Positions 18,801 to 56,700 of a DNA stretch of 64,000 bases are shown one piece after another; the stretch's first letter is position 1, and each line of letters begins with the position of its first letter. This DNA is from Polytrichum commune (Eukaryota > Streptophyta > Polytrichopsida > Polytrichales > Polytrichaceae). A model generated the notes under the pieces. The model was not told where the DNA came from. It saw only the letters and a program-made list of their open reading frames with translations, and ran no database searches. Both the position numbers and the translations under genes were made by a program. The stretch covers positions 34,442,440-34,506,439 of the forward strand of contig OX485807.1 of assembly GCA_950295325.1 (NCBI GenBank), given 5' to 3'.

Positions 18801-21800
18801 GTCGATTGAACAACACAAAATCACCATCATTCATGTGTCTTTCCACCTGCAAAACATTCACAACACTATCAGGACAAATGCGACAAGCCTAAAAGTGTTC
18901 AGTACAATCTTACACAATTTGAGGGCCCACTGCAGACATCACAGCAAGAACAAGATACCATTCTCACTCTGGCAGCAAGTACCTTATATCCAAGCTCCAA
19001 GTGGCGATCACTACTCTTTTTCAAAAATCGAAGATCCAATCGTTGCCCATCCTCTCTAATTATGTACTTTGCACCAGTCTTGCCAGGGGGTGGGTGAGGC
19101 CCATATTCAACGAGCTCTTTCAGCCTGTGCCACACCAAGCAAATACCTTTCAGCAATGGAAGTGTAGACTGCACTAGGATAGAAAAGAAAAACATATCTG
19201 GCATTCAAGAACTGTGTAGCAAGAGAGTACTAACCTCTCCATGTTGTAAGGCGTGACAGTTTCTGGGTATGTCAAATTCAGTGCAATACTCCATGGAACT
19301 CCAAGTTCATCAATATTGATGTTTGGATCTGGTGTGATCACAGTACGGGCAGAGAAATCCACACGCTTTCCCATTAAGTTTCCCCTAATTCGGCCCTCTT
19401 TTGCCTTCAGCCGCTGGCAAATTGATTTTATTGGTCGCCCAGACCTTTGAGTGGCCTGTTATGCATCAAATGCAACACCCCCTCATATTAGACACCAACA
19501 GCATCGAACTATGGCTCAAGGCCCAGATCTAAACTCTTCCCGTGGGATCCTTCACTACTATAACCCACTAACAACCAACTCCCCTCTTCTCTCAAGAGAG
19601 CGGTTGCCCAGATATAAATCAACATCATAATCTACAAGCTAACAAGTATCATGCATCTCTAAAATAATGTGTGTGTGCTGAACTTATTAAGAATGCAACT
19701 AACTGCAACAACAAATTCTTGACATTCTCCTCCAAGCTAATCAACGAACACATGATCTCATTGGGACTGAAATCTCAATCCACATTATTAGATAGCACTG
19801 ACTTGCTCTGGGAGAGAAAATTTAGTGGGAAAAATGAGGGACCTTAAAAAAATGAGCACAATCACTCTTCAATACCCAGGAAGAGGATACAAGCAAATAC
19901 CCACCCTTGGCTGCCCTGGAAGATCGTTGTCAAAGTATGTGGCTATGTGAAATTGCAGAAGCTGCGCAAACTCATTGATAATATGGGTGGGAGCACCATT
20001 TTGCTCTTGCCGCTTCAAGTTATTGTTATGGCGAATAATCATGGCCAATTGATGTGTCAAATCATCCTACATTGTACAATAGACAATATCAAGTTAATAT
20101 AGTATATTGGCAGAACAGTACTCTCCTCCAAATAGAACTCGTCCCTAGGTTAAAAGAACCAGTGACATTGTCAGTACAAAAAAATCAGGTGCTATTCAGC
20201 CCTTCAACTATTTACTGCTCACAACCTGTTGTTGTAAGATGGGCACTTGCACAACGACAACCTGACACCAAATCTAGTGATGCATTTACTTTCAGTCATC
20301 CATCACCCTATTTCAAAAATTGGATAGTACAAATAAATAAAACCACACCACCGTATAAACACTGAAACAAAGAAATGAATAAATAAAAGGAAATCACCTC
20401 ACTGCGAGCTGAGCTGTCCATCATAACAGAGGGGCGGACAGGTGGTGGTGGAATAGGAAGTGCTTGTAGAATCATCCAATCAGGTCGGGCAAACTTTGGG
20501 TTAAGACCCAACAAAGTACAGTCCTCATCACTGATTCTCTTGAGAATGCTTAGTACCTGAAGCAGAAGTTGCAGACAGGAGAATCATCAAGACCATGAAC
20601 AAATTGATAAATCAAAGCACACAGGTTTCTATCTGTCTTCCTCTGCACACAAACATCAGTTGGACGAAGCCAATTCAAAATTGCCCCCGCAATTGTAGAG
20701 ACTAATACATTCCAGATAGCAAGATTCAACAAAAGAAAAATATGCGCAACTCTTCACTTTGTAAACTATACATTAGTTTATGCCCTGCTCCAGCTATCTG
20801 TTTATGGTTCTTAACAACAACTTGGCTTTTCAGAATTGCACAGCACCTTCTCAGCACTGAGTTGCTGTTTGCGTTCCACAGGTTCTGGCATGTACTGATC
20901 TTGTTCATCAGCCTTTTTCCGGCTTGGCTTAAATTCAGCTACAAGCTTCATGCCATCTATTGTGATTTTTGGTTGCTGTGCACCACAACCTCCGTGAGAT
21001 TTTTTCTTCTCTGTGTCCTCCTCTCCATAGCGTGTGTCATTCTCATCAATCTCATCGCCTGCATCACATTTGGTTTTGCTTTTACAGCAGTCCAGTACCT
21101 TCTTCAACCTGTGCTTTGGATTTCGTACTTTTTTGGCTTGCTTGAAACGATGGTCTTCCTGCAGATCATGAGCATGAATTCATCATTACAAGAACATCTT
21201 GAATACCTGATATTTCTCCTCTACCCTTTGCCCAACTGTCTGACTACTGATGCAGTTCCTCCATACATACGGGGCATACCGGATTGAAGAGACGTCGGCA
21301 GAAACCCTAGAATAGATAAAGAGTGAAAACCAACCTCATCAGCAAGACACCGTGAACAGTTGTAGCAGACACAACGCAAGATAGAGAGCACGGTCTTCAG
21401 AAATCCAATGTGAAACATAGGTTTGGCGAGCTCCAAATGTCCAAAATGACCAGGACATTCTGCCATGCTGCCTGCACATGTCTCGCATTTGGTGTGGCGG
21501 TCAATTGTGCCCAACCGGGGGTCACTAAGACCTCCCATCTTAGGTTTGCCCCTGTCATATGTCTCGCTGTTCTCTATTTTACATACTGACATTTGCCGCT
21601 GTTGCAAGGACAAAAAGCAACGGGTCAGTGCCAAGTAACCTAATTCAAAACTGTTGCACATACCACAAAGCGAGCTTGGTTCTTGTAGAAACCAGTGTCA
21701 CGGGATAATCTTCCTCCACTGCATCCTACAACCCTAGCTCCAGACAGGCTGCACTAACTCCAAATATGCAATCCCAAAATAAATTCGAAGAGTGCAGCCC

Positions 21801-26038: not shown

Positions 26039-26162
26039 ATTGAGCAATGCAGAGAAGAGAAAGAACTCCGGTCTCTAGGGCCGGAGTGAATAAAGTGTCT
26101 GTTCGTAGAACATCCTAGGCCAAGCCTTACGGCATTGGCTTTAGATGTAATTGAGCAATGCA
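26039..26162 (-). mobile_element. Short retroposon copy 1, with 13-bp target duplication
   Basis: ATTGAGCAATGCA stands at both 26039-26051 and 26150-26162. The 98 bp between (26052-26149), read on the minus strand, ends CTCCGGCCCTAGAGACCGGA and then a TTC-rich tail. It is homologous to the insertion at 28943-29018 over at least 70 bp. Tail plus exact flanking repeats indicate target-primed retroposition. Confidence 0.75.
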
Positions 26163-26471
26163 CATTTGTAATACTTCAAACTAGAGAATTCTAGCTCACA
26201 TATGAAGAGATTGGTACGAAACTAGCTTCCCTCAAGTATTAAAAACATTTCGTAAACATTCAAATCCTCATTGAAAAGTTTAGTTAATGGGGTTGCGCAC
26301 TATGTTCTACATGATGGTGTATGTTGTGGGTCACACTATAGGGTTGCCTTGGGTTAAGTCAAACTCTCATCACACTACACATATGCTCACATTTTATTTT
26401 TTTACTATGATCAATGCAATGAGCATTCAACCAACAGAGAATATTCTGAAAAATATTGTCAATCCCACATG

Positions 26472-26500
26472 ACATTGTTATGGATCTGAATAATGTTATG
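26472..26500. repeat. Solo arm of the 29356-29476 hairpin repeat
   Basis: ACATTGTTATGGATCTGAAT followed by AATGTTATG matches the right arm of the hairpin at 29356-29476. No partner arm is seen nearby. Confidence 0.65.
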
Positions 26501-28258
26501 ATGCAAAGAGACTGTAATTTGACATTACAATAGGTCCGTGCACGTGTCATGCTCACAGAGACAAAATTGATTGATTATATAATGTACATGGTTGGTTCCT
26601 TGTAACAGTCAAGAGTCGTGCCTCTGCTACATGTGTTGTCCAAGATGGTCAAAGTCACTAGAAAACAGAATCTGTTGGCAATTTCCATACAGCTCCGCCA
26701 ATCGAAAGACTATGTAGATCAGTTCATAAAGATGGATTACTTTGAAACTTTCGAGTTGGGTTCGCCCAAATCGTGTTTCATATTGTGCACGTGTGTGTGT
26801 ACATTATGCATTCACGATTCATTGGCAATCACAATCTTACTGAGCTTCTTGTTGCTTTGGTTGAAGTAATTCTCGTTCAATAGCATACTCGCACCATATT
26901 CTGCTCAGGATAATCGTTTAAATTGCCCATGACATTTCATTCTGCTATGTTTGAGATTCGCATGTGAAGCGTGAAGAACACTTTGCCGTGATGTCAGAAT
27001 TGTGGTGAAGAAGCCTGCACATGATTCATGGTAGATTAAAGTTTTGGCCCATTTCTGTTTGTAGCTGAAATTCAAGTAAAACCAGATTGTTTTGTGACTA
27101 TTGGACTTAAAGATGTTACAATTTTTGGGGGCATACTTACAATTTTCATCTTTTTGTCTGTAATTATAGATAGGGTATAGATTTTTCGGACACTGATATA
27201 ACTGATGCAATCAGTATCACCAGAATCAAATTTTGTAGTCAAATTTCCATCTGCAAACTTGATTTTGGATACATCTCATGTTTATCATGCACGTAGAATT
27301 ATGATGTAACCGAGAATGTCAACAAGGATGATTTGTGCACTTCCAAGAACTTCATTTGCAGAGTTGATGACACATATACTTCATCTTGAAACAAGTATTG
27401 AAATAATATACATTATCCAAAAACGCCATTTCTTATTTGAAAAAAAGACCAAGTGATCAAAAGTTTGTAGTAAGGTCTCTGAAGAAGCCTCTCTCTATCC
27501 ATGAAAGTTCTTAGAAACCCTAATTTTTTAGCAGAACCAAGTAACTGTTTTGAGTGTGTCTTGTGGGAGACAAACTTGATATACGCACAAGGATGCATTC
27601 GTTGTTCATTTTATGATTTTGTACAAAGTTTAGTGATTTACATTCTTGAACAACCATCTACTTGCGAGAATTTGGAGATGAGGAGGAAGAGATACCTAAT
27701 GTCAACACCATAGCATGCACATCTAAGAGATTCGCATCTGACTTACGTTGCATATTGAAGATATAAAACAATTACATCTCTTAAAATTATAACAATAACC
27801 GTATTTGTAGGGAAGTATCAGAATTTGGATCTTGACATGTTGGTTTTTTCTAGTATATATGTCATTCACCACTAATCTCACACATCAACATTATTTCATC
27901 TTGTATCAATCACATTGAACTATAACATTGATATCGATGCCTTCGAATCATAGTGTTGCAATTCTGATCTTGGGAAAGTGTCAAACGAATCGTTTGTTAA
28001 ATGTTGAGTTAGAAATGAAAAGACATAAATTTTGGAAGGGTTTGTATGAACACACGTTGCTCGTTTGCATTCTGACAAATACAAGTATTTATGATGTGGG
28101 TCGATTACCAGAAACAGTGCTATGGCAACATCATTTGTTCCATGGAAGTGGTAATCTTCTGGTGCCTTGCTCTTCAAAATCTCCAACTCTCCTCAAAGCT
28201 TGATGGTCAATAGAATTGCATTATTCATGCATCTCAACATAAGTTTTTTGGATCGATT

Positions 28259-28591
28259 CTAGCCACGTCCAGTAAGCTTCCGCGACCAGTTCCCCGATTT
28301 TGATGGCAAAGGAGGTGAATTCAAACTTCTTTTCTTGTCGTCAAACTCCACATCCTTGTCGTCCAACATCAAAAAACGGACCCGTTTTTTCTTCAGAATG
28401 CTGTTTGTGTGAGGGCTCGAGGAGCTCGATGCCTCGGCCGCATTGTTATTGTGAGCGACCCGAAACGAGCTCTTCAAGATCCGTGGCTCTTGTGCAGGTA
28501 ACATGACTTTGTCATGGTCAATTTTCGGTTCCGGGGACTTTTGACTCTTGGGTTCAAAGAACTTTTGCATCTTCTTCTTCACATTGCCCAT
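28259..28591 (-). CDS. Small lysine/serine-rich hypothetical protein, 110 residues
   Basis: An uninterrupted frame begins at ATG 28591 (a further in-frame ATG lies at 28615) in DNA that is more GC-rich than its surroundings. I do not recognise a family. The start MGNVKKKMQKFFEPK is basic, with a glycine after Met; the middle is Ser-rich; then comes SILKKKRVRFLMLDDKDVEF, whose RVRF fits the RVxF docking motif for protein phosphatase 1. The C-terminus is basic and Ser/Pro-rich. It could be a small single-exon gene or an open frame in old repeat DNA. Codon-scale composition and the motif favour a gene, but without homologues the call is tentative. Confidence 0.4.
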   Translation of the reverse strand: MGNVKKKMQKFFEPKSQKSPEPKIDHDKVMLPAQEPRILKSSFRVAHNNNAAEASSSSSPHTNSILKKKRVRFLMLDDKDVEFDDKKRSLNSPPLPSKSGNWSRKLTGRG

Positions 28592-28928
28592 TTTGTGCAC
28601 TCGTCCGATCCACAAGAAATCTCACTTTATTCAAACCATATTCGTGTTTTCTATGTCTCGAATTCCAATTAAAGTACCAAACTAAAAGCCAAAGATTACT
28701 TGCCACATGGGAGTTTTGTAGTGTGTTTCGAGCAAGAGATGTCAAGACTCCTTAAGCTTCATAAATGTACATGCGCTCTTTCCCATGCAAGCTAACCCTT
28801 GATGTGGGATTCGTCACAAAACCTTAATTCTTAAAAGCGCGTAAGACTTTTTTAGTCTCATGTGTCAACCGTTATCAATAGTTTTGGAGTTTGCAAAGAG
28901 CATCAAAATGTTGAATGTGAAAGGTTAG

Positions 28929-29032
28929 ACCCATCTATCTCAGAAGAAGAAGTCCGGTCTCCAGAGGAGGCCGGAGTGAATAAAGTGTATGTTCATAGAT
29001 CATCCTAGGCCACGCCTTACCCATCTATCTCA
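28929..29032 (-). mobile_element. Short retroposon copy 2, with 14-bp target duplication
   Basis: ACCCATCTATCTCA stands at 28929-28942 and 29019-29032. The 76 bp between, read on the minus strand, hold GGCCTAGGATGATCTATGAA, CACTTTATTCACTCCGGCC and GGAGACCGGACTTCTTCTTC. The body aligns with copy 1, but its 5' end is shorter, as expected for 5'-truncated retroposition. Confidence 0.8.
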
Positions 29033-29355
29033 ATACATATGGCTATGGAGAGCAAAAAAAATGGTGCAATCCAAAGGTTGGCGTAAATGAGAGAGGTTTA
29101 CCCTTTGAGCATACAATGATATCATATGTATGCCCAACACGGGCTTGTCAAGGTTAAGGAATGTGGGGTACCACCTCCCTTCCAAGATGTTTTCTTTTGG
29201 GAAGAATGGCCCAAGGAGGCTTGCATGGTAATGACATGGGTGCTCAAGGGACAGGGGGGAATGCTTGGATAATGGTTGGAGGGAATGGTATGGGTTTGGT
29301 TGTTTTTCATTGTTGCTCATTGAACATGGGGTATTTGGTGGCTACAAGGTGGATT

Positions 29356-29476
29356 CATAACATTATTCAGATCCCTAACAATGTTCAATGGGACTGACAA
29401 TAATTTATGGAATATTTCCATATATTTCCCACATTCAGTCCCACTGAACATTGTTATGGATATGAATAATGTTATG
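29356..29476. mobile_element. Hairpin MITE-like element of 121 bp
   Basis: The left arm starts CATAACATTATTCAGATCCC. The right arm ends with its near complement GGATATGAATAATGTTATG, with about 3 mismatches in 42 paired bases around a roughly 30-nt AT-rich loop. There is no coding content and no clear target duplication. Confidence 0.75.
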
Positions 29477-30624
29477 TTTGACATCTAGGTCACCGTAGTT
29501 GGATATGGAGGGCTTCAATGGAATTTGGGTGAAATTCCTCCCTATATTCAAGTTGTGAAAAAAAATTAAGGGTGACACACCAACATCCAACTTCTATGGT
29601 GCGTATCAACCGATGTTTGGTTTGTTTTAGTTTGTTTGGATCATACAACATCACCTTGGTCTTGGTCTTGTCATATGAAGTGGATCCCATAGAAAGACGA
29701 CTCCAATGTTGCTTCATTTTCTAGTTGGTCTAAGGTTATATGTAATCCTATAACGGCCATTATGAGGATTACAAGGGCCTCCTACGTGTGATGCCCTGTT
29801 TTGAAGGTAAACACCTTGAATATGTTAAGGACAAGCCAGCCAACACCTATATATCTCCCCCAAGGGCAAGCCCCCAAGTTTCCACATGGTTGGTTGAAAA
29901 TATCCGGTTCATCCAACTACCCTGGTACGATTGGGTGCATCATAGTTGGTAATGTGCACCAAAATTCAAGTGTTGGGATGCCATCAACATGCTCTGAATG
30001 TTTGTGTTATGAATGGAAGGTGATTTCAAACTATTGGATATTTTTGTCTTGTATTGTAGGACACTCCACGTGCAAGGTTCTTACCCTCCTACATGGACAA
30101 CTTCGTTGGAAATTATATTATTCCATAAGTTGCCAATATTTAGGATTTTTTTAATAAACATTTAACAAGGGAAAATTTGGGGAAATGTTGAATTTCAATT
30201 TTATGGAAAAAATGATTTTTTTCTTCAATTTCTAGATTCAAAAACCACCTAGTTAAGTTGCAAATAGACCCTCACATGCTTAGCACTAGATATGGATGTA
30301 GTGTGATGCCATCCCCTTGTGTATGTGCGCATTTATATTAACAAAAATTGGGTATAAAGAAACCCTTTGCAAGAGGCCATGCACGCTCTTTTTAGGTCTT
30401 TTAGTGTGCACAATGTTGGGCCAAGGGGGGGGGGGGACTAGGTAGCTAGAGCCCCGAAATTGCTATTGGTATACTATACTCATGCTTGATATGTTTGGAT
30501 GTGGGGAATGTAAAACATTGCTTTGGGCCTAAGCACATTAAATGACATTGCATTACTAATTTCTTAAATATAAAAAATCTCTTGACATCAAGATATGAAG
30601 TTCATAAACCTACTTTAAGAAAAG

Positions 30625-30658
30625 TGTGTGTGTGTATATATATATACACACACACACA
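30625..30658. repeat. Palindromic microsatellite (TG)n(TA)n(CA)n
   Basis: A run of GTGTGTGTGT, then TATATATATATA, then CACACACACACA forms a near-perfect self-complementary microsatellite. Confidence 0.9.
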
Positions 30659-31930
30659 TAAATGCCTAACACAATTTCAATTCAAAATCAAAGCCATTGT
30701 TTTGAAACTTTATGAAACCTCTTACTAAATCAACAGCAATTATGTCAAAACAATGAATAAAACCATTGTTTATTTGAACAAATGAGCACATTAAATAAAG
30801 ATAAGTTAGGAAGGAAATTGAAAGCATTGTTCGGGTGCAACATCCTAGTGCCAACAAGTGGGCACAAGCATGTATCTCCCTAAAATATGCACCAAACCGC
30901 TACATAGCTCTGCAAATAAGAAAAATTGACATCATATGCCCAAATGAAGCCTAAGTTTTGTGTATACATATTCATTGGTTGCACATAGTTTAAGCATATC
31001 AACTTCATGACATACAATATGCATGATAAGAGTTACAAACTAGAAGAGTGGCAACATGCATTAAGACTTAGGCACCATACTGGCATACACTAATTTAAGG
31101 ATCATGGGGTCCCCCAATTGTTTGAGTCCATGCACATAAAATTATGAAGGATTTCCATGGAAAAATGGGGGATATTTGGATGAAACTAGTGCGCAATTAT
31201 CCAAGTTGACTACATTAGTAGTGAAGTTGCATGTTTGTTTTTAAATAAATGGCATGAAAGATGTGTGAGGTTCTTCATGTACATATTATTGGATTCTTTA
31301 TGATGTAAATGAAAAGTGTATGATGTTGTGAGCAAGAATGTGAGGTTAGGACAATACATTTGAAGAATCAAAATACCCAATGATATGTAATCGTCCATTC
31401 ACAACACCAACCTATCGTGGAACATTTAAACAAAAGCCTATTTTTTCTATGCTACACTTTCCAACTTTGATATGGACATGGACATGGAACCTTTGGTGCT
31501 CCGTCGACACCTGCCCCAACAATCCCCTTGTGTTTAGTGCAATCTATTACAATGGACTATTATGTGGCGATGGTGAAGTTCTTGTCCACTTGTAACAAAC
31601 CTCCCACATGTTTGCCACCAACTTTCACATTAACAATTATCAATGAAAATGATGAGTTGAAGAACTCACTTTATTTTCTTTGTAACGTCTAATTACAATC
31701 GTAGACCAAGGAGATCTTGGTCTAAGCTCAACCACCCGACCATAGGAGAGAGACCAAAAAAATATCCTCTCTCCTCCCCCCCCCAATTTGGGGAATGTAT
31801 TTAAGATGTCATATCGTACCATCTTAAGATCGGTTATGAAAGTGTGAAATAAGCAATTCAACTATTTTCTTTACACATCACGTTTTTGGTATACCGTGGT
31901 TATAGTCGGACTGGATTTGCACTAGTTGCA

Positions 31931-32236
31931 TCATCCCATGGTTACATTCTTGGGGTCCACATGCATGAGCGCACACCACTTAATAATGTTATGACAGGTT
32001 GTGAGTGGAAAATGCATGAGAATCTTTGCCGAAGGGACATTTTGCCAAAGAAAACAATCGCTCCCACATTCGGGGCATTTCTCTTCATTGAAGTATTCTC
32101 CCTCGAAGTAAATGCAACTCTTCAACACACTCCAATATTGTAGAGTGCTCCATGTTTCATCTTTCGATGTGCCGGAATGTCGTTTCCACGTGGGATGCAA
32201 GTGGGTTGCGATGAACACGAGCATGACACGTGGCAA
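31931..32236 (-). pseudogene. Transposase fragment, CACTA (En/Spm, TNP2-like)
   Basis: A 101-residue open frame contains EEKCPECGSDCF followed by AKILMHFPL. This is the zinc-knuckle-like CPxCG plus xKVLxYFPL signature of the Transposase_21/TNP2 family of CACTA elements. Only this part of a protein usually of several hundred residues survives; flanking DNA has stops in all frames and no element ends were found. The identification rests on two short motifs. Confidence 0.5.
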
Positions 32237-33991
32237 GTTTTGAGGGGGGAGGGGGATAATAATTATTTTGTGTCATAATAGAGAGCCCTCTACATTGCTC
32301 AACCCCAAGGTACGAAACAACCCACTGAACATTTTGAGTTACACCAAACTGTTACACATCTCCCAACGCGCAGAATGACCATCATGTGCCAATACCTTTA
32401 TATGTATATAACAAGATGCTTCATACATACATACATACATACATATTCATTCATGTTTAGATATTAACCCCCCCCCCCCACACGCACACACGCACACACA
32501 CGCACAAACTCCCCCAAAAGCCAAAGAGGCGCATCCAAAACGATCGATGCCAAGGCATATACAAAAGGCATGAACAATGAACTCCTATATCATAAAGGAA
32601 TTTATTTGAGAGGGTTTGTGTGTGAGAGTGTGCGCGGTAGTAGGGCCCCGAACCGAGCGAGCCCAAACCGTTAGGTTAGGGCTTTGTGTTAGAGGGAGGC
32701 AACACACAAGCACAGGATTCGTCATGTTGTGGTGTCGTGTTGCCCAAACTTCCACCACCGCAGGCACCGGCTCCCACCATCGCTGGACGCAGTTAACTTT
32801 CTTACCGCCGACAGAGAGACCGGTTTAACATTTCATCGCGACTCATCGTGGTTACTTAGAAGAGGGACCACAATTTCACTCCCGTCAAAAAAATCCTCGT
32901 CGCAAACTACTCAGGGTGTGAACCGTGCGAACCAAGCGGGGGTTTGGTTTGGTTTGGTGATCTCGTCTTGCCGGGAGGGCGGATTGTTGTTTGGAGTTTG
33001 TTGGAGTATTTGCGAGGTGTTCGAGAACGAAAGAGGGGTCGAGAGGGATAAGTAGTGGCAGATCCGGTGAAGGTTTGCGGTTGTTGCGAGCGAGAGAAAG
33101 GAATCAGGAGGGTTTGCAGGATGAAACGATAGGGTTAAGAGAATCATTCAGCGAGAGGAGGAAAAGGAAAGTGGAGCAGGGGAGGAGAGCGGCCGCTGTT
33201 ACATGTGTTGTTAAAAAGAGCCGAGAGAGATCAACATCATCATTCTCTTCATCTTCGTCGTCGTCGTTCGTTGTCATCTTGAGTGCCCTCCTGATGATGA
33301 TGATGATGCTGTGAAAAATTGCCTTGTTAAACTTCTGTATTCTTCGTCGTCATCTGTTGAGAGTGGTAAGGAAAGCCACTGACGAGGGAGTGTATTCTTC
33401 GTTCGTTCGTCGTTAGCTAGCTTAGCGAGAGCACACCGATGTTTGTGCAACCGTCATGTTTTTTCCTTCCTTTCCTTCAGTAGATATGATTTGGTATGGC
33501 ATGTGAGACTTAAGCCCTGGTTTCCGTCTGCGCATTGTTATAAGTATTATATGGCGCTTCGACATTGGTCCACGTTTGGTGCAGAACTGCCAAGAGCCTC
33601 CTCCTTGGCATTCGCTAGGCTTATTCACGAGGGGCTCGTCCAGGACATACTTCTGGTCATGCTACTGATTGTTCTTGCTGCTGGATTCAGTTTTCAGGTC
33701 ATGTGCCGATGTGATGTTCTGCTACTTGTGGTGGGAGAGTGGCCGGGCATTGTTGCAGAGGATGAATGTAGCATGTGTTTGTGCAGGGATGAGGATGAGG
33801 AGAGCGAGAGAGTGAGAAACTGCAGCTCTGTGAGAGAGAGGAGTGAGAGGGGAGAGGAGAGGAAGAGGAAGAGGAAGGAGAGTGGCAGGTCAGTGACTAC
33901 TACTTTGCAGGCACTACTACTAAAAGCTGTTGGTCGAGCTGTTTGTGAGTGAAAACAAACAAACATTGTATCTTCCGCCCTTTCTTGCGAG

Positions 33992-36900
33992 ATGGCTTCA
34001 GGCGAGCATGGTCTCAATCTTGGATCCCGCAAACTCGTGGTAAGTTACACTCTTACAATGTCTTCTCATTTGTTCTCTGAGTTTTTACATTTTTGGTCCC
34101 CAAATTTATGTAACTAAATATTACTACCCATCTTCTTCTGGACTAGAATTATGGGCTGTATGTAAATATTACCGATTTTTAAAATGCTATATTCGAATTT
34201 CTAAATCATTAAAATGATTTTTACTGACGAATAGGACGAGCCTTAAAGTGCGTATGGTAATTTACTTTATAGTATTTGACTTTATCAAATATCTATAAAA
34301 AAAAGTTAGCAAATTGGACCTCCTTGTTGAGCAGTGCATGTACAGTCATCCATGTGAGTTTTAATTGTAGTTTCAAGAATTTTTGTATAAAGATACTTCA
34401 GCTGGGCCAGCTGTGTTCTTCAAGGACTGGTCATATCATCAAATTATGTTCTCTTATAAGAAAATAACTGAAATGTTTACTCTGTTTCCAAGAATAAGTT
34501 CCATAGATCTGCTATTTGTTCATTACAACATGCACCGATATTGGATGTTACTTTTTTTGCATAGATGAGTCTTTGTTGTAGTAAAGGCGGAATATGTGTA
34601 TTTTTGGCCATTTTAGTTTTGGCCGGTTATCTTGTACCCCAGAGATCTCACTTCCTTGATTTTTTCCCCCTTGTTATAGTGTAACGTTCCTAGAGATATC
34701 TGCTATGTGGAATGTCACATTCGTGACTGGAGTCCCACTGTGATAACTGTCTGAAGGCATATGAAGTTTAATGCTTATCCCTCACACACCCCCCCCCCCT
34801 CGTAATATTTGGGCCTGACATCTCGTGGGCTGTTTTATAGTATATATAGACAACCTAATATATCTTGGCAGTATGCATGTTGTGGATGGAACATATTATT
34901 CTCCTGTTGCCAAAGAAAATGATGTATCACGTCTTCTGTATGCTTTCAGGTCTTGGGCATCCCGTGGGACATTGATACAGAAGGATTGAGGCAGTACATG
35001 TTGAAGTTTGGTGATCTTGATGATGTTATTGTCATGAAGGTCAGTTAGTCCCTGAAGTGTTATGTTTGCAGCACATATTTCTGTGCAGGATTACTTGTTT
35101 ATATATTTCTCTATCAGTTCAGTAGTCCACTTCCTGCATATGTTTTTCTGTAAGTTGATCCTTGCTTGCATATTTTGCAGGATCGTGCCACAGGAAGATC
35201 CCGTGGTTTTGGTTATGTGACCTTTTCAGTAGCTGAGGATGCTAAGGTACATTCTATATCCTTGATACACATATATCTAAATATATTATTGCACTACTTT
35301 GTCGTGCTGAACAGGATATGTTTGGTCTGGGATGCAGAAAGCAGTCTCAACACAACACTCGCTCAATGGACGAATGTTGGAAGTGAAGATTGCAACACCC
35401 AAGGTACACCAATTGTAATTAAATTGCACTTTAATCAATGATTCGATACTGTATTCTACAAGGTGTATGTAGTTATCATGTCTGCTGTTTTTTTTGCACA
35501 AAGGGCAATGAATTTCTCAGATCTCAGAAGCACTCTTTTCATCACAATTTGAGATGTCGATTCCTTCATTCCAAGGATGAAGCACATACTGTTGGTCTTG
35601 GGTTGTGTTTTGAAGTTGAATAATGTTACATTGATATTTGACATCTTTTAGTTTCTTGTTGAACAGGAAGAGATGAAGCCGCCAGCTAAAAAGATCACCA
35701 GGGTGTTTGTTGCCAGAATTCCTCCAAGTGTCACAGATGATGTATTTCGGAGGTATTTTAGCATTGAACAGATTGCTCCCAATTGCTTCATATTGCTGAC
35801 CACCTGAATATCTGAGAGGCAGTGACAGTATCTAAATTCAGTATTTACTGTCAAAGTGAATCTGAACTTTGCATATGAAATTGGAGAAGAGTAGCTTTTG
35901 CGTTTTTTTCTCAGTTTAGACCTCTGACAGGCAATTTTCTGAATGTTTTATTAGAGGAATTATATGATTTCAAGAGTGGTTTTGACAAGACTTCATGAGG
36001 TGATGTGGGTGCAGCTACTTCGAGAAATATGGAACTTTAAGTGATGCATACATGCCCAAGGTACAAGCTAGTTGCAAGATTATTTTATGCTTTGCCTTGA
36101 AATGAGTCTTCATGTCCAGTATTTATTTCACTAAGTCTATTGTACGTACTGAAGTACTTACTATTTACAGGATCAAGGATCAAAAGCACATCGGGGCATT
36201 GGCTTTGTTACTTTTGAGCAGCCAGGTGACTACTAGAATATCTACCATCCGTCCTAGTTCCCTGAAGTGAGCTCACATGCAAGTGTTAGCTGCTTCTTTC
36301 TTATTGTCCTTGCTGGATTAAAGCTTTGGTTCTGCTTTATTTTCTTCCCTTTCAGATATAATATCACCGAGTCTCACTGTCCTGTTTCACAGCTTTGACT
36401 GCCTCACTAATTGTGGTGCTGTCATGTAGAGTCTGTGGACCGGCTAATGAATGAAACACATGAGCTTGGCGGCTCAACCATTGCTGTGGATCGAGCTACG
36501 CCTAAGGCAAGTTACTCCCGGTTTATTTTGAGGGCTGTAGTATGACCATTTTCATTGGAGGGTCCAGATTCTGGTGATGTTTACAGTTTGAATAAAAAAT
36601 TCTTTTGATGATAAACAAAGTCCATTTACCCACCCTCCTGCATCTACTCCTGATCTAACAGTTTTTGCAGCTGGTCGTGCAATCTGGAGGATCCTGTGCG
36701 AAATCATTGATGTTATGTCACTTTTCAACATGCAGGAGGACGGTGTGAAGTCATGGGGACGTGGATTTCAAGGCGGCAATGCAAATTCTGGATCACATGC
36801 TGGAGCTGGTGCTTATGGAGCTTATGGTGTGTACACAAATGCTGCTCGGTTTGGTGGCTTTGGTGGTGCATTCGGTGCATATGATTATGCAGGTTCTAGT

Positions 36901-38139
36901 CTGGGAAGTGATTTGGGCCCCTCAGGTGGATTAAGCAGTGGATATGGAGCTGGTAATTCATGGGCCCCTCCCCCTCAAGGGAGTGGCTATGGTGGACCTG
37001 GTTTGGGAATTTCAGGTGGTGGAGGGGGAAACTATGGGTCGAGTGGACCTTCAGCTCTGCCTTTGAGAGGCCTGGGTACAAAAATATTTGTGGGTAGATT
37101 ACCACCTGAAGCAACTGCAGAGGACTTGCGACGCTACTTCAATAATTTTGGAAGAATATCAGATGTTTACGTCCCAAAGGTATGAATGGTCTAATATCAG
37201 TGGGATTCAAGTATAGTGGGGTACGTTTAGGATGCTACAGCGGAGCTGTGAAGCTGGTTTGTGGACATTTTTTGTCATGGAGTTCTGCCGTTAATTTTAA
37301 ACCTTGCTTGTACTCAGGACGCAAAGAAGACTTCACATAGAGGGTTTGGTTTTGTTACCTTCTCTGATGAAGGTGCAGCAGAGCGGGTCGCTCTAAGAAC
37401 ACATGAGATTCTCGGACATCAGGTCAGGATTCTGCTACCCTTTACCTTCAGTCATAAAAGTAGGTGCGTCTTGATGTGGTGATTCTGGTTCCTAACCTGA
37501 AATTATAACAAGTATGCTGTTTGTGTGGTATGCCATCCAGGCCCATTTATACTCCTTGGGTAATAGCATTTGATCTTGCCTTATTGCATAAATATCCTTA
37601 TTCTAACTTCCTCTTGCAACTTGGGCAGATTGCTGTGGACAGAGCAGCTCCTCAAGATGAGATGGCAAATAGTCCATACATGACCAGTGCCTCTCTTTCT
37701 TCTATTCCAACAGGAGGTGCTGGTGGTCCAATGCGAGGAAGCAATGGACCTCTTGGAGGCGGTGGGTATGGAAATTTACCTGGAAATCTGGAATTTAACT
37801 CTGGGGTAAGCTCATTTTCCCTATGTCAATTTTCAGAGATATTTTATCTATTTTTTGGTCTGTGGTAGTGCAAAACAGAATATACTCCATTCATTTATTG
37901 GGTCTTCACATATCTCTAATAATATCGTCATCAATCCATCATACATGTTCTATTGGTATAGAGGTATTGTTGTATATCCTTTCAAATATCTTGCATTTAC
38001 TAACTGTAACTACATATTGTTTCTATGTGGTCAGTGGGGGGGATATGGTCCAGTGGGTGGACTTGCATCAGGCATCGATGCAGGTTTGCCAGGAGGGCAC
38101 CGATCTTCCAGGATAGAACCTCGTTACCGACCATACTAG
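33992..38139 (+). CDS. Three-RRM RNA-binding protein, At4g36960-like
   Basis: Twelve exons: 33992-34039, 34950-35039, 35181-35246, 35338-35403, 35667-35752, 36015-36060, 36171-36225, 36430-36506, 36736-37179, 37318-37422, 37629-37805 and 38035-38139. All phases agree and total 454 residues. RRM1 is at about residues 14-90 (RNP2 LVVLGI, RNP1 RSRGFGYVTF), RRM2 at about 101-178 (VFVARI, AHRGIGFVTF), and RRM3 at about 294-372 (KIFVGRL, SHRGFGFVTF). A Gly/Ala/Tyr-rich linker lies between RRM2 and RRM3, and the tail ends RIEPRYRPY. The order, the TDP-43-like RRM1 and the conserved tail match the plant protein At4g36960; its targets are not known to me. It is expected to be nuclear and hnRNP-like. 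The donor after 36506 is GC rather than GT. The 5' leader probably starts near 32.6-33.4 kb. Confidence 0.92.
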
Positions 38140-38831
38140 AGAGGGCTTCCTTCATGGGTAGATTTTGACTATCTGTTGTCAAGGCAACAAATATTTAAGC
38201 AAAGAGCTGCAGTAGTGGATCTGTGTAGATGGTGTGAGTGTAGAGGTCAGGAGACTCACATGTAGAACAGTGTTTCAAATTGACAGTTAGTGAGAACTGT
38301 ACAAAGGTCAAAACCACAGAGAAAGCTGGTCATGTACTTCCAATCACAACTTGAGACCATTCCCTTGTGGGTTAAGCAGCGTTGCTCTAATTTACTTCGT
38401 GGGTATTGTTCCAACATCTGCCTCCACCAGTTCAATCAGTGGTTGGGCTAAGTCACTGGCAAGTGTACGTGGTAGCTGTTACGGCTCGAGTCCATGACAA
38501 GTTATTCTCACAGAATAAGTGTTCCTTCTAAGGGATGGTTTGACAGGGGATATTATTGGCTATGAATTGATCTGTGTGCTGAATTCCAGCTTTGAACATT
38601 TCTTTAGCAACACTACCATAATTCATCATTCGACCTTGCTAAATTTGGAGAGCTGTGAACATTCCAGTGGGATTCCTGAATTGAGTTTGTTTCTGTGATA
38701 GTAATGGGGTATTAACCAAAACATTGAAGTCAATAAAGTGCACATTATAGTGTACGAGTGTAACTCTAGGGATGGCGATCCAGATGTGAATTCTTTATAT
38801 CCTTTTTTTTCAACATGGTAGACATACATCT

Positions 38832-38905
38832 GCCTTGTTAGCTCAGTTGGTTAGAGCGTCGTGCTAATAACGCGAAGGTCACAGGTTCGAAACCTGTACA
38901 GGGCA
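38832..38905 (+). tRNA. tRNA-Ile(AAU)
   Basis: A 74-nt cloverleaf with all arms pairing: acceptor GCCTTGT/ACAGGGC (one G-U), D arm GCTC/GAGC, anticodon arm TCGTG-CTAATAA-CGCGA with anticodon AAU, T arm ACAGG-TTCGAAA-CCTGT, discriminator A. Box A (TAGCTCAGTTGG) and box B (GGTTCGAAACC) are intact. A T5 run for polymerase III stop follows at about 38909. It lies about 0.7 kb downstream of the three-RRM gene and looks functional. Confidence 0.96.
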
Positions 38906-40216
38906 GGCTTTTTGCAGAAATCACATTTCATATTGGTTTTGAATGTTGCATAACTTGAGTTCAAGATTGCCATCCTTACATCAACTGTAATATGTCAAGA
39001 AAATTTAGCCCAATGGAAACACTAAACATCTCTATCACTCTAATTTAAATAATAATGAGTGGATGATAAGTGATTGACTTCATTCAAATCCAAGCAGTGA
39101 CAAGGTTCTCATATTCATTGTATGCACGCCCAAAACAAATTTAAGTAATTGACACTGGAGTTAATCTTTAAATTCCCATATTAGTGTAGTAAGACACATT
39201 TGAAATGTATTGACCACAATTCTATCAAGGAGTACGACTCTTCTCCACCACACCTTAACCCCTAATGTCATATGTAACCACGATATGGTTATGAGTAGTT
39301 TGCTCTTACCCCCTTCGACACCACTTGATGGTTTCTTGATTGTTTCAACCACTCCTCTTGTTCATGTTCAAGTTTGCTAGGTTTTGCCACATGGATAATT
39401 TCGATTCAACATAGTTAGTTTTTTTTGGATTAATTCAAATCTAAAAGAAAATTTGCTCTCAATTGGTTTACAATGGCACCGGTCCACGAACCAAAACTTG
39501 ACATTTGTCACCGCCCTGGTTTAGGGGCAACATATCATGAACATGTTTTTTGTTGATCCCTATGTGCAAATGATTCCTAATTGATCTGAAAATTTGCATG
39601 GCACTCAAATGTAGTATTTCCTAAGCATCTACCGTTGGAAATTTTAGTCATACATAACGGTATCAAGATTTGTGAGTTGATTTGAGTATTTATATTGCCC
39701 CTCTTTTGAATGAGGGTAGCATTTTGTCATTTGGAGATGATTTGAGTGAAGGTTTGATCTAAAAACCAACCCTAATTTAATTGTTGCCCCCTCAAGACCA
39801 CTATTGGAATTCCTATTATAATCTCCCGCATAATAGAACTTCAACGTTTACAATTTAGAGTGTGAGTAGTCACCTCCAACCTGCAAACATCTATACGGTT
39901 GGATTTGTCAAAGAACTTTTTGTTTTTCAACTAAAATCGTTGAAATTGAGGTCACGTTTTCTGAGCAAATTTGAGAGAAATCGGGCATGGGAAGTTAGGG
40001 GTTTATTCAACTTAACAAACGCATAAGGAACAAAGGGGCTTTATTCACACATCATATGCTCCTAACATGCTCATGTTTACCTACCCAAAGGAAATAAGCA
40101 CTATGTGATGTCCCACGTGATACAAAATATTATGACATGACATTTATTAATATGTTAATAGTCTCTAATTGCATCTCTCCCACCGCTCTTCCACACTCTC
40201 ACCCCACCAATTAAGG

Positions 40217-40549
40217 TAGGGGTGGCAATTTCCGTGCGGGTCCTAAAGTTGACCCCTATGTCGGAAGCACCTATCAAGGTGCTTTTACCGTTCACAGCGT
40301 TGCCAGCAATCGGTTTTAAAAATCCACCCTGTGGATATACCACGTACCCTATGTGCGAGTGTTGGTCACTCTACAAGGTTTCCTTTAAAAATTTGTAGGA
40401 GATCATAAACATGCTGGAAATTTTTGATTTTTTCATAGTTGCTCTTGCACCAGCTTTGCGGAGCGCTCAAAAATAAAAAATAAATAAAAAAATAGTTTCA
40501 GCATCCCAACTAGGCACATCTGAAATTTGGACGGAAATTGCCACCCCTA
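40217..40549. mobile_element. hAT-type MITE of 333 bp with TAGGGGTGGCAA termini
   Basis: The ends TAGGGGTGGCAATTTCCGT and its exact complement form perfect terminal inverted repeats; TAGGGGTGGCAA is a typical hAT superfamily terminus. The flanking octamers are AATTAAGG and CCTTAAGG (6 of 8 equal), compatible with a mutated 8-bp target duplication; this makes outward pairing reach 25 bp. There is no transposase inside. Confidence 0.75.
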
Positions 40550-43036
40550 CCTTAAGGGGTAAGCAATGTTAAGGATTAGTGAGGATAAATGTTAAGTAAT
40601 GTTAATTGTTATTTGTGCGGCCAAACTGCCGATTAAGTTAACTTAGCATTTTTGCACAGGTTGTCCTTAGTTCGGGCACATAACTAGTCTAGTCAAGATT
40701 GTAAAACTTTCACTTGTTTTAGAATTTAAAATGTGGACACATAACTAGTCTAGTTAAATTTAACTCCCCTTCCCACACGGACTATTAGGGATAGATCTAC
40801 AAGTCAAGGTTGATTTTGTTAACATGACTAGTCCTAACCTAGTTGGGGTGGCCAGGATCAAGGACCGATCGTAATTGTCACTAGCAAGTGGGAATACAAT
40901 GTTACATAAAACTTGCTACACCCCCCCCCCCCTAAACACATACAACATAAGGTGGATGGGGCCAATTCAATTAGCTTCCTTAGTCAAGCACTTATTTTAT
41001 GTTCTTAATGGGTAGTACAATTGCTCTTATTGAGTGGGTGAATAACACATGTTCATTTAGCCAGTGCCTTTATGATATTTGGGTTACCGTATGTTGATAG
41101 TAGGTTGGGTGGAAAATAATTAAGCCTAATTCCTTTGGACATAATTGGGCTAGATGGCCTAAATGAAAGAGAAAATAATCTTCAAAATGTCTAAGGTTTA
41201 GGAGATTTGGTGCATTGGAACAACTCAGTCCAAAAACTGACAACACAACATGTCACACGCATTCATCGTAGCATTCACATGGAGTCAACTTCATATTCAC
41301 ATGTTAGGCATTGAACCTTTCAAATTCAAGTTGATAGAAATTTAAGAGCATGCGAAATCTAGTAGAGAAGTGTGTTGCCATGTGAATGTCTAGTTCTACG
41401 AGGGTGTTTCGATGGTGTAAATCTGCAACAAAGATGTGGTATTTCGTGGGTGCAACAATTTTTTCGTTCTTGGGTGAAGACTCTACCTTTGCTTCATTTG
41501 GGCATGATGCACCAAGCAAAAAATGAATCTCATTTGTAACAATGCACAAATGATTTTCACTTTTTTGATTCAAATAGTTGGGTGAAGTTCCATAGGTGAC
41601 AGTTGGCTATATACAACTTCGTCGAAGTGGAGATCGACTTTTCCAAAGTAGAGATTTGGGTGTTGCTTCGTTGAAGTCTAGATATGGATGCATGCTTGCA
41701 TTGGGATCCAACGTGCATGTTGCGGAAGTCATAGAAGTTTTAGGGGAGGAGTTTGATTTGGAGTTACATAAGGAGATCCAAAAATGCAAAGACGGAGGAG
41801 GGTTTGCATGCAAAACATGCGGAGAATAAGTACGAGGGTTAGCTATTGAGGTAATTACAAAAGTAACTAGGATTGATGTCACTCTCACGAACAAACTTGA
41901 CCTTGATCCATGAGTTGACCGTGAACACAATGAATACCTTGACCTTGATGACATAATACAAAGAAATTTGACCTCGATGACAATGATGGATCAAATGTTG
42001 AGGTCACATTTGGAAGGTTGCATTGAACTCACAAATCTCTTCATGGTAGTGAAGAGGGAGATGAAATTGTACAAAGGAGGGAGGTATGTGTGGAGGGGAA
42101 GGAGTAAAAAATGCGAAGAGGAGTTTGGTGCGAGAGAAACAAGAGGAGTGTGTTGCATGAACAAGACTAAGAGGAGGAATATGATGCGGGAGCAGCACTA
42201 ATTAGTTCATAACCCTAACCCTAATTAGCACACTAATACGGCTTAATCTAAATCCTTAAGGCTAACATCGGGCATTTAACCACCACGAATGAATGTAAAA
42301 CAAGTTACATTAGATGGATTTGTACGTAGTACATGCTATGTGCCTAAATGATTAAATATACATATACATGTTAGCCCTTTTTCATAAATGTTTTTACAGA
42401 CCTCCTAAGCATTTTTTAATTAATTGTTATTTTGGGCAAAAAATGGCCAATAGGCTATCAACCTATAACAATCACATTCACAATAATCAAACTACACCCA
42501 TCATTCATTCATAATTATGAGTGCTACCCACCAAGCTATGCCAACGCTTTATTTTTGTGGGTGAGGTGGGCAATTTAGAAGGTGGCATGCGGTTGTGAGG
42601 TGTGGATAAACTTGTATTGCAGGTATTTTATAACTAAAAGCTAGTTTGGTAACATTTCCTCTTATCTATGACCAATTTGGAGACATGGCACAGTCAATAT
42701 TGTCATTAAACTTCAGTTTATTTGGCAATTGATCCATGTAGAACATGTTAGTGATGACGTTCACTTACACAACCTTGAATGATGGAAGAGTTAACCCCTG
42801 TAAGACTAGATCGAGGAAGCAAAGAATCTTTGATTCCATAACTTAGATCAATTCATTTCTCAACTATAATTTCAACAATTCCAACAATTTCAAAATGTTT
42901 GGTTCTGATTTGCAATAGCTAACCCGCTCAATCTCCTAATACTCGAATCCATCGGCTCGATGGTTCCACATGGCTAGAGGTGTGCACATTAGCCTCGTCT
43001 ATGTTACAACCATTGGAACCTTTTCCGTTCCACTGT

Positions 43037-43337
43037 TGGAGATTGTGCCCTAAAACCCAACAATGCACTGGACTTAACTTAAGTTTATTCACATCATCAG
43101 CCTATTTTTTATAACGACTTAACTTACTTTGCAAATCTAGGCCCACCATCGGTCTGAGTATTACATAGTGGGAACAATTCTATAAATAACGCCTCAATGT
43201 ATGGGATATCACTTCTTGAATTGTGACTCTTTGGAACCCTAAACCTTTGTTTCTTAGGAACTAGTGTTGGACTAGTATTGTCTTTTTGTTGTACCGGAGA
43301 CCGGAGTTCTTCTTCTTCTTCTTTTTTGTTGTATCAT
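43037..43337 (+). mobile_element. Probable solo LTR (Copia-like), interrupted by a short insertion
   Basis: It begins TGTTGGAGATTGTGCCCTAA, a common style of Copia LTR start, has a TATAAATAA promoter-like box near 43181, and ends about GTTGTATCA. No internal region or second LTR is seen. A matching target duplication is not clear, so limits and class are tentative. Confidence 0.45.
43283..43333 (+). mobile_element. Short retroposon copy 3, 5'-truncated, 11-bp target duplication
   Basis: TTTTTGTTGTA stands at 43283-43293 and 43323-43333. The 29 bp between read CCGGAGACCGGAGTTC followed by TTC repeats, matching only the 3' end of copies 1 and 2. The orientation is opposite to those copies. Confidence 0.6.
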
Positions 43338-53964: not shown

Positions 53965-56700
53965 GCATTAGTGTCATATCGTATTTTATGTCATGTGGTG
54001 TTTTATGTCATTGAGGCGCCTTCTCTAATGACACTTCCTACGAATAAGTTTATGAATATTGTCATTCCAATTTACTTATTGTTCGTCCACTTTTGATATA
54101 TTTTGCATCTTAGCATTTGTGTAACTTCAATATTGTCACGGATGATTGAAATTCAAATGAAAAGCACTTATATGAAAATGAGTCACATGGATAAAGGCTG
54201 CATATCCGAGTTCATTGTAGGTACACTAAAATTAGCATTTAGTGTTGGCAACACTAAATCTCAATATCTCCACTATTTGTTATTCATATCATGTTACGAT
54301 GATGAAGCAATTAACTATGTGGTAATTATATAAACAATCCATTTACGAATTGCATTAATAGTAAATGCTGTAATGTTGTAAATGTTTTTATATATATATT
54401 ACAAAATCATCAATTTTTTATTTTGTAAAAGGTTGTAACTAACATCAATGCTTATACAACACCCATGATTGATTGTGTTTAGCAATTGCTTGGTGAAAAA
54501 ATTCACATGTTACTCTTCAAGGCAAATATGTGTTGTGTGACAAAGCTTTATGTTGTTTCGATTGCTTATCAAAAGATGGTTGTTAGAAATTTGGCCATGT
54601 ATGTGCATGGGGTGGTTATGTAATGTGCAATGTTATGTCAGTGTGGGTCCTAACTTTTTATATTGTAAATTTGTGGGTGGTTCATTGTATTTGGTTGAAT
54701 GTGGCGGAGACGAGTAGTTTGTTGGGTGATGATGTTGGGACGACGGGTGTCGTATGTGGTTATTTATTAGATATGTGATGATAAGTCCCATCCAAATCCA
54801 TATTGCACTCTCTGCTCAAACAACACGTCAAACACTTGGCCATACCTACTATCTACATGCTCAAACCAACATATAAAAAGACTTCGCATAACCAGACACA
54901 ACAATGTTGTGCACCAAATTGCCCACACTCTCCAATCCAATAAACACACCCACTTCTACACCTTGATCAATGCCAAAACCCACAATGTCAGGCCCCAAGA
55001 GATCACATGCCTTGATTGGCTCCTCAAATGCACATACATGGCCAAACTCATATTGGACATTTGTTGCATTCTAAGGGGGGGGGGGGGGACCATAGTCAAA
55101 CCCCCATCACCTCATCACCATCCATAATCATCCAATTCATAAATTTCACCTATTGCCATGATAGGTTTCCCACATCAATAGTTAGAGAAAAACACAACAA
55201 ATATAACCTCCTCGTTCAAAACTCATACTTATTGGGTAGGAAGTGAACCCCTCTCACCACCATTACCATCGGTGAAATGGAGTCATTCACAAACATTCCC
55301 TACAAGCATGAAAACCTTCAAAATACCCCTTAATGAATCATATTTTTTATGAGCACATACATCGCATCTCAATAAAACACCTAATAAAAGAAAACTAGAA
55401 AACAAACAAGCCTCCACCTCAATATGAACCCCCTCCCCCTCGCCCCTTAAATATATGTGTGTGCACATGTGTGAAAACCTAGACCTATTAGACACATGGA
55501 GCCCACCTTCCATAAGGAATGAAATAGCCTTACCTTGAGCTTGGTAACACACGATCAACTTAAGGAAGAACGAGTTGTTGTTCATCTTAGTGTTAGTTGT
55601 AACACTAATGTTCCTTTATTTATTTATGCACATTTGTTACATACTTTTTGTTTATCACATCCAATAATATAGATGAATCAATAACAAGGCTTATTATTTC
55701 CAAACTATGTCATGTTTTCTTGTTAAAATGACCAGTGCCTTTGTGCCTTTACTATGGACATTCAATACAACGATTCTCCATGAAGAGGAACACAAAAAGT
55801 ATGTGTACATGATTATAAATTGTGTATACATAAGATCACAATACTACAATAAATATTGTATTTAGTGTAACATGGTATTTTGATGTCATTGTGGTAACGT
55901 TTATAGTTAATACACTTCTTATGAGCATGTTTACAAATATTGTCATCCACTTCCGCAACCTAACATTTATATAATGAATTGTTGTCATGAATGATTGAAA
56001 TTTGGATGAAAATCACTTAGTAAGTGATAGTATTGGCAACATTGTAAATCCATAATGTCCAATTATTTTTACAAGGAACGACAAATAATGTTAGGTTTAC
56101 ATTTATTGTCGGGGACATTACACAAGCAATTACAATTAGTATCGAGCAAGGCAATTAGAATTGATGACATTGAATACAACATCTAGTGTAGTGTAGTAGT
56201 TCTCAACCTATGAAGATGCACACAATGTTGTGTGGTGCCTTTTGGAGAAATTTGTGCATGATTTGTATACAATTTTAGGGCATGACTTGTTATACGACCT
56301 ACTCGTGTATTTAGTACACTAAGTATTATGTTTAGTGTCATATTGCGTTTTATGTCGTTGTGGTAACTTTTCTAGTTCCACTCATCATGAATAAGATTAA
56401 AGTACTGCCATCCCAACTTACTTTTGATTCATCCATTTTTACTTTGGAAAATTTTGCATCCTAGCGTTGTGTGTTTTTTTTTCAAATGAAACATTGTCAT
56501 GGGTGGTTGAATTTGGATGAAATATCACTTAGTAAGTGACATTTCACAACATCGTAAATCGAAATCGCCCATGACTAATTCACAACAAACGGGAAAATTA
56601 TGTTACATTTACATATAGTGTTGTGACACTACACGGAAGATATACAACAATTAGTGTTGAGCAAAACAAATATAATTGGTGACACTAAATACGATGTCGA
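53965..56700. repeat. Three direct copies of a 350-450 bp repeat
   Basis: Copies lie at about 53965-54285, 55870-56205 and 56330-56700. Shared words in order are GT(G)TCAT.T.G..TTTTATGTC, ATTGTCATNNN, TTTGCATC.TAGC, ATTGTCA.G..TG.TTGAA.TT, ATCACTTAGTAAGTGA (last two copies) and TTAGTGTTG.CAACACTAAA-like text. The last two are about 460 bp apart in tandem; the first is 1.9 kb away. Confidence 0.65.

Follow-up and report, generated by a model that had tools for sequence, protein, structure and literature searches.

What inserts units of 98, 76 and 29 bp, each between its own perfect direct repeats, into a plant genome? The question is raised by a 64,000-nucleotide stretch of Polytrichum commune DNA (assembly GCA_950295325.1, contig OX485807.1, positions 34,442,440 to 34,506,439 of the forward strand; hereafter the window), in which a preliminary description made from the letters alone had recognised three such inserts. 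It had assigned them a common 3' end with TTC repeats and ascribed them to target-primed reverse transcription with 5' truncation. Our analysis indicates, with high confidence, that all three arose as 5'-truncated copies of a non-long-terminal-repeat retrotransposon, a long interspersed nuclear element (LINE) of at least 9 kb resident in this land-plant genome; this rating is for the explanation as a whole, which includes the proposed mechanism and the probable roles of its domains set out below. The parent element, its set of domains and the hairpin at its 3' end lay beyond what a first reading of the window could see.

Short inserts and their target-site duplications

The coordinates of the three inserts proved exact throughout, and the flanking repeats of 13, 14 and 11 bp are perfect (Table 1); in the shortest insert, a single T can be assigned either to the tail or to the repeat. 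The 98- and 76-bp inserts are on the minus strand and the 29-bp insert is on the plus strand, and with orientation taken into account, the 3' end common to all three is real. Of 200,000 random placements in the window, one gave an exact 11-bp repeat at any of the three spacings. A 14-mer common to the inserts, searched in the window alone with up to three mismatches, gave four matches against 2.7 expected, which is not significant; the significance of the shared end therefore comes from genome-wide counts.

For these counts, the 408-Mb assembly (64 contigs) was searched with two queries, a 90-bp one joining the 76-bp insert to the second copy of its repeat and a 99-bp one for the 98-bp insert. 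At least 40 matches were scored per query, with 583 and 670 rough candidates, respectively. The 3'-terminal 20-mer occurs exactly 166 times in the genome and its reversed control not at all, and a 17-mer allowing up to two mismatches gave 779 matches against 39 for the control. The first 20 copies have variable 5' ends, with flanking repeats of their own (judged by eye) in several and longer upstream bodies in others. The longer copies that had been suggested as a check thus exist, and they run into a coding LINE: the 98-bp insert is 90% identical over 102 columns to the 3' end of one long copy (L026), and for the 76-bp insert, identity to the 3' end is 88-94% in L021 and L025-L028 and 79% in L029 and L030.

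Copy length was determined in two subfamilies. The first sample comprised 80 copies, namely the first 100 listed places of the 20-mer (contigs C1-C4) minus every fifth, for which 800 bp upstream and 80 bp downstream were fetched and body length was defined by homology to long copies. Bodies measured up to 150 bp in 51 copies, 151-300 bp in 3, 301-600 bp in 6 and 601-750 bp in 2, and were longer in 18. The sister subfamily, which has a different hairpin stem, counts 76 exact copies (control, 0); 43 were called long from an upstream protein match (matched by eye), and the 33 others, which were fetched, divide into 7 long and 26 short copies of 27-608 bp. Its lengths are up to 150 bp in 15 copies, 296 bp in one, 301-600 bp in 9, 608 bp in one and longer in 50. 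Inserts of up to 150 bp are hence the commonest product in one of the two subfamilies sampled, and in both the stopping rate drops sharply after 150 nt, from 51/80 to 3/29 in the first sample (p 6e-7) and from 15/76 to 1/61 in the sister subfamily (p 9e-4).

A copy counted as carrying a target-site duplication when the end of its tail and the 45 bp surrounding the homology boundary shared a repeat with a score of at least 8; shuffled pairs served as control. In the first sample, such duplications flank 35 of the 62 short copies, and in the sister subfamily 21 of 26, against 1.6% and 1.3% of shuffled pairs, which bears out in the sampled copies the duplications first noticed in the window. None of the 35 duplications of the first sample is more than 15 bp away from that boundary. 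The bodies they enclose measure 22-146 bp in 32 copies and 430, 453 and 686 bp in the remaining three, with 5' ends at 22, 24, 25, 31, 37, 42, 65, 69, 75 ... 146 bp and no common start. The family combines a common 3' end and TTC tail with variable 5' ends and individual target duplications in most of the sampled short copies, as expected of a target-primed retroposon; the original attribution to target-primed reverse transcription with 5' truncation holds, and the view that the element works as a target-primed LINE is strongly supported.

The preliminary description had hesitated between tails of a longer short interspersed nuclear element (SINE), tails of a LINE and a tail-only family, and only the LINE part of this has survived. 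A SINE family that borrowed the LINE 3' end, with the LINE machinery copying a short transcript of its own, would be in keeping with the excess of short over long copies in the first subfamily (51/80 of up to 150 bp) and has a parallel in Chlamydomonas, where Dualen/RandI LINEs have tail-sharing SINE partners (PMC3747384; this and all further sources given by PMC number are drawn on in part). We consider it very improbable, however, in view of the missing common start among the duplication-flanked copies of 22 to 146 bp, of the alignment of short copies along the LINE 3' end, and of the Rfam scan, in which no tRNA or other family reached the gathering score at the three inserts (a single tRNA, at 38832-38905, was all that the window contained). 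The inserts are read as LINE tails rather than as a SINE because their 5' ends scatter, the duplications sit at the boundary and the sister subfamily behaves in the same way. With no fixed 5' end in either subfamily, the SINE reading was rejected, and so was the tail-only family, given that short copies match the 3' end of a coding element. A literature search on the angiosperm SINE families Au and Angio-domain gave, among the papers listed, no lead to these units.

A different account would make the short copies remnants of longer ones, reduced by deletion or recombination rather than truncated at insertion. The share of short copies is indeed higher in the more diverged subfamily (51/80) than in its better conserved sister (15/76). 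A deletion after insertion, however, should have taken away or shifted the 5' copy of the duplication. In 35/62 and 21/26 copies the duplication sits right where the copy is truncated, close to the homology boundary; this largely refutes the account, and we give it scarcely any credence. Loss of long copies over time may still explain part of the excess of short copies in the more diverged subfamily; for this reason, the data suggest early abortion of most attempts for one subfamily only.

The 35 duplications of the first sample average 11.8 bp (range 8-20) and begin with T in 31 cases, a bias inflated by 7 copies in which the duplication match begins within the last TTC of the tail. C never directly precedes the duplication, and T and A are weakly preferred 6 and 5 bases upstream. 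Such a target pattern would fit a nicked strand that primes on a (UUC)n RNA tail.

Coding capacity of the parent element

The parent was traced upstream through long copies, and a rough first-look count puts the element at 4751 places in the genome (150 scored). In copy L029, a single stop separates two open frames, one of 648 and one of 2169 residues; the other long copies (L026, L030, L114, L115 and L116) contain breaks. A further open frame of 931 residues lies a few hundred bases upstream of the 648-residue frame of L029, in another frame (L113, joined to L029), and may be part either of the element itself or of a repeat next to it.

In Pfam scans, RVT_1, RNase_H and PCIF1_WW exceeded the cut-off in all six long copies scanned, with RNase_H positioned between the reverse transcriptase (RT) and a C-terminal domain. 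An apurinic/apyrimidinic endonuclease (APE) upstream of the RT exceeded the cut-off in L029 (Exo_endo_phos_2, 5.3e-7) and stayed below it in L026, and the frames scanned from the other four long copies begin downstream of the APE region. Compared with the PDB, the RT best matches R2 structures (1.8e-25), with 8c8j, which we take to be human L1 ORF2p, at 6.9e-14; five of the six long copies have YADD. Downstream of RNase H follow a CCHC finger, which is part of the layout of LINEs of the restriction-like endonuclease (RLE) type, and then a C-terminal domain with the motif KPD...IEFT...K..KY, presumably the pattern of the restriction-like endonucleases of R2-type LINEs. This motif is invariant in all eight aligned rows, the degraded L026, which reads KPN in place of KPD, standing outside the alignment. 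Judged by motif and position, the C-terminal domain is likely a second, restriction-like endonuclease.

Ratios of nonsynonymous to synonymous change (dN/dS) were obtained from six pairings of four divergent copies and are rough, with synonymous distances of 0.8 to 3 and one not computable. They amount to 0.04-0.09 for RT and RNase H, 0.10-0.15 for the PCIF1-like region, 0.08-0.12 for the region of the finger and putative endonuclease, 0.10 for the APE (one pair) and at most 0.17 elsewhere. The coding sequence for APE, RT, PCIF1-like domain and RNase H is under purifying selection.

PCIF1 is a cap-adjacent adenosine methyltransferase, and we take NPPF to be its catalytic motif. The related region of the element, located between RT and RNase H, resembles PCIF1 in that PF12237 exceeds the cut-off in all six long copies and the region aligns weakly with 6irx (E 0.021) as far as NPPF; unlike PCIF1, all six long copies read HPHT at the NPPF position. 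Methylation is therefore unlikely. The domain is probably maintained for a function other than that of a methylase, and may, with methylation probably lost, have been kept for another task such as RNA-cap or RNA binding. Among the papers listed in literature searches, nothing relevant on PCIF1-like domains in LINEs was found, and the conserved, catalytically altered domain raises the question of why a LINE would keep a cap-methylase fold.

The N-terminal frame further contains NPGP motifs, counted by pattern: three in L029, two each in L115 and L116, one in L114, and in L026 a variant ending in HPGP. The core motif of 2A peptides has been given as (D/G/C/N)(V/I)ExNPGP (PMC12846837). DIELNPGP in L029 and L116 and DVEPNPGP in L115 conform to this core, and DIQLNPGP, DIHPNPGP and, in L026, DIEPHPGP deviate from it. 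During translation, these 2A-like peptides would probably break up the N-terminal portion of the polyprotein.

Placement among LINEs and proposed mechanism

The 3' end of the element is a hairpin with some compensatory changes, followed by (TTC)n; 3' hairpins are common among LINEs that recognise their own 3' end. The stem, formed by the sequence 5' of the tail, reaches up to 11 bp and mostly carries a 3-base loop. Changes on both sides were found at 5 of the 11 pairs, over 17 distinct 25-mers and again over 32 gapless classes, and in both sets none of 500 shuffles had as high a covariation score. When the hairpin partner was slid along, pairing dropped to 54% at most, from 90 or 88%. The test left out longer and shorter variants, and because the exact 20-mer fixes the 3' arm of every copy selected by it, few sequences contribute both-sided changes.

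As far as its sequence allows a placement, the element is probably of Dualen type. An APE and a PD-(D/E)xK-like endonuclease in one LINE define Dualen/RandI (PMC3636483, PMC4640811), a group that also has RNase H (PMC4640811) and whose described hosts are Chlamydomonas relatives and cryptophytes (PMC8226300, PMC12747079). In our element, too, a single coding region holds APE, RT and RNase H together with a C-terminal motif that resembles PD-(D/E)xK, and its 3' repeat, like the algal tails, is not poly(A); it differs in that the repeat is (TTC)n, as against (ATT)n and (CTATTT)n in eight green-algal families (PMC3747384), and in that the host is a land plant. A PCIF1-like domain and 2A-like peptides were seen here, and algal Dualen elements were not compared for these. 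R2, in which a CCHC finger is followed by a C-terminal nuclease, resembles the element in this arrangement, if the C-terminal motif is that of a nuclease, and in its RT, whose best structural matches are R2; the element differs from R2 by its APE and RNase H, and by inserting at scattered, loosely preferred sites, whereas R2 has one fixed target. Plant L1 and RTE elements and their SINEs share target-primed copies and 5' truncation with it, and a compensated 3' hairpin has been described in one maize/sorghum L1 lineage (PMC3747384), but the TTC tail, the R2-like RT, the PCIF1-like domain and the C-terminal motif set the element apart from them.

Membership in an APE-only clade such as L1 or RTE, with a C-terminal domain that is no nuclease, would agree with the lack of a profile or PDB match for that domain and with a 2022 review which, in the portion drawn on here, describes land-plant LINEs as L1 and RTE only (PMC9033089). 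We regard this placement as unlikely, given that the RT matches R2 (1.8e-25) far better than 8c8j (6.9e-14). The tail also speaks against it, (TTC)n differing both from poly(A), the tail of most flowering-plant L1s, and from the TTG type, the (TTG)n or (TTGATG)n of their RTEs (PMC3747384), and so do the CCHC finger and KPD...IEFT...K..KY, which follow the RT in the nuclease position of RLE-type LINEs (PMC3636483). Among the papers listed in our literature searches, none reported Dualen in land plants; a LINE of Dualen architecture abundant in a land plant would, if true, extend the group beyond algae and cryptophytes.

Several observations weigh against the reading as a two-endonuclease, target-primed LINE. 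The APE exceeds the cut-off in L029 only, Exo_endo_phos remaining below it in L029 and L026, and catalytic motifs are missing in some long copies (YADD in L116; KPD and FIEFT in L026). The C-terminal region has no Pfam match, its first piece has no PDB match either, and a profile built from the C-terminal alignment finds no R2 chain in the PDB, its one weak match (E 0.22) being to an unrelated type of protein. For the hairpin, no more than 6 cells show both-sided changes, pair types are not more numerous than in shuffles (268 and 243 of 500), and a mismatch occupies the seventh pair in 12/17 and 27/32 sequences. No clear duplication was found in 27/62 and 5/26 short copies of the first sample and the sister subfamily, or, within the first 3 kb fetched, in four of the five long copies L026-L030, the fifth (L027) having no more than an unconvincing 9-bp match well inside the stretch. 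The inflated T bias of the duplications belongs here as well.

We propose that the RNA of the element would end in the hairpin followed by (UUC)n, and that its protein would nick DNA with a loose site preference, roughly R|T when read on the sense strand. Priming of the cut end on the UUC repeat would let reverse transcription begin at the tail. Many attempts would break off in the first 150 nt or so and yield copies of 22 to 150 bp; copies past this early zone would usually extend hundreds of bases or more, and a second-strand cut 8-20 bp away would create the target duplications. The C-terminal domain would most likely serve as the second, restriction-like endonuclease of a Dualen/RandI architecture. 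The full combination is more tentative, and we rate its chances as slightly below even: a land-plant LINE lineage with two endonucleases of different fold, a captured PCIF1 domain that has remained under purifying selection despite losing its catalytic motif, a chain of 2A peptides in front, and two-phase reverse transcription whose early aborts near the 3' hairpin leave inserts of 22-150 bp. As stopping falls off sharply beyond 150 nt in both subfamilies, they would provide a natural system for the transition from initiation to processive synthesis in target-primed reverse transcription. For annotation, they are a warning that inserts of 20-150 bp with target duplications can be LINE tails.

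Features of the window and further observations

Table 1. Inserts, duplications, hairpins and an older remnant in the 64,000-nucleotide window; copy assignments follow the LINE reading given in the text.
Feature	Position	Strand	Remarks
Insert 1, read as 5'-truncated LINE copy, 98 bp	26052..26149	-	sense on minus strand; 3' tail a degraded TTC run
Insert 1 target-site duplication, first copy, ATTGAGCAATGCA, 13 bp	26039..26051	.	exact repeat
Insert 1 target-site duplication, second copy	26150..26162	.	exact repeat
Insert 1 3'-terminal hairpin, inner stem shortened	26066..26086	-	sequence folding
Insert 2, read as 5'-truncated LINE copy, 76 bp	28943..29018	-	
Insert 2 target-site duplication, first copy, ACCCATCTATCTCA, 14 bp	28929..28942	.	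exact repeat
Insert 2 target-site duplication, second copy	29019..29032	.	exact repeat
Insert 2 3'-terminal hairpin, outermost pair lost to substitution	28952..28976	-	structure as in family hairpin
Insert 3, 29-bp copy, 3' hairpin arm and (TTC)n, nothing else	43294..43322	+	
Insert 3 target-site duplication, first copy, TTTTTGTTGTA, 11 bp	43283..43293	.	exact repeat
Insert 3 target-site duplication, second copy	43323..43333	.	exact repeat
Older, frame-broken remnant of a relative: CCHC finger and C-terminal endonuclease-like region	54786..55312	+	tblastn against L029 protein, translation

The remnant in the last row of Table 1 is 38-40% identical to the L029 protein (tblastn, E 1e-21), and the window therefore also contains a much older insertion of this LINE group. 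The three inserts lie inside 17 kb (26039-43333); at the density of the 17-mer, the Poisson chance of at least three copies in 64 kb is 2e-4, a clustering that is only suggestive because the window was chosen for these inserts.

Elsewhere in the window, exons of the largest subunit of RNA polymerase II, with a long heptad repeat at the C-terminus (judged by eye), occupy 13877-21661 on the minus strand. In the genome, which its LEAFY sequences mark as that of a land plant or a near relative, SAM_LFY matches exceeded the cut-off at four places, one of them much weaker (C1:40569930, C7:8639033, C1:62297762 and C7:14030880), pointing to several LEAFY-like genes; next to one of these matches, exons for the LEAFY DNA-binding domain are readable.

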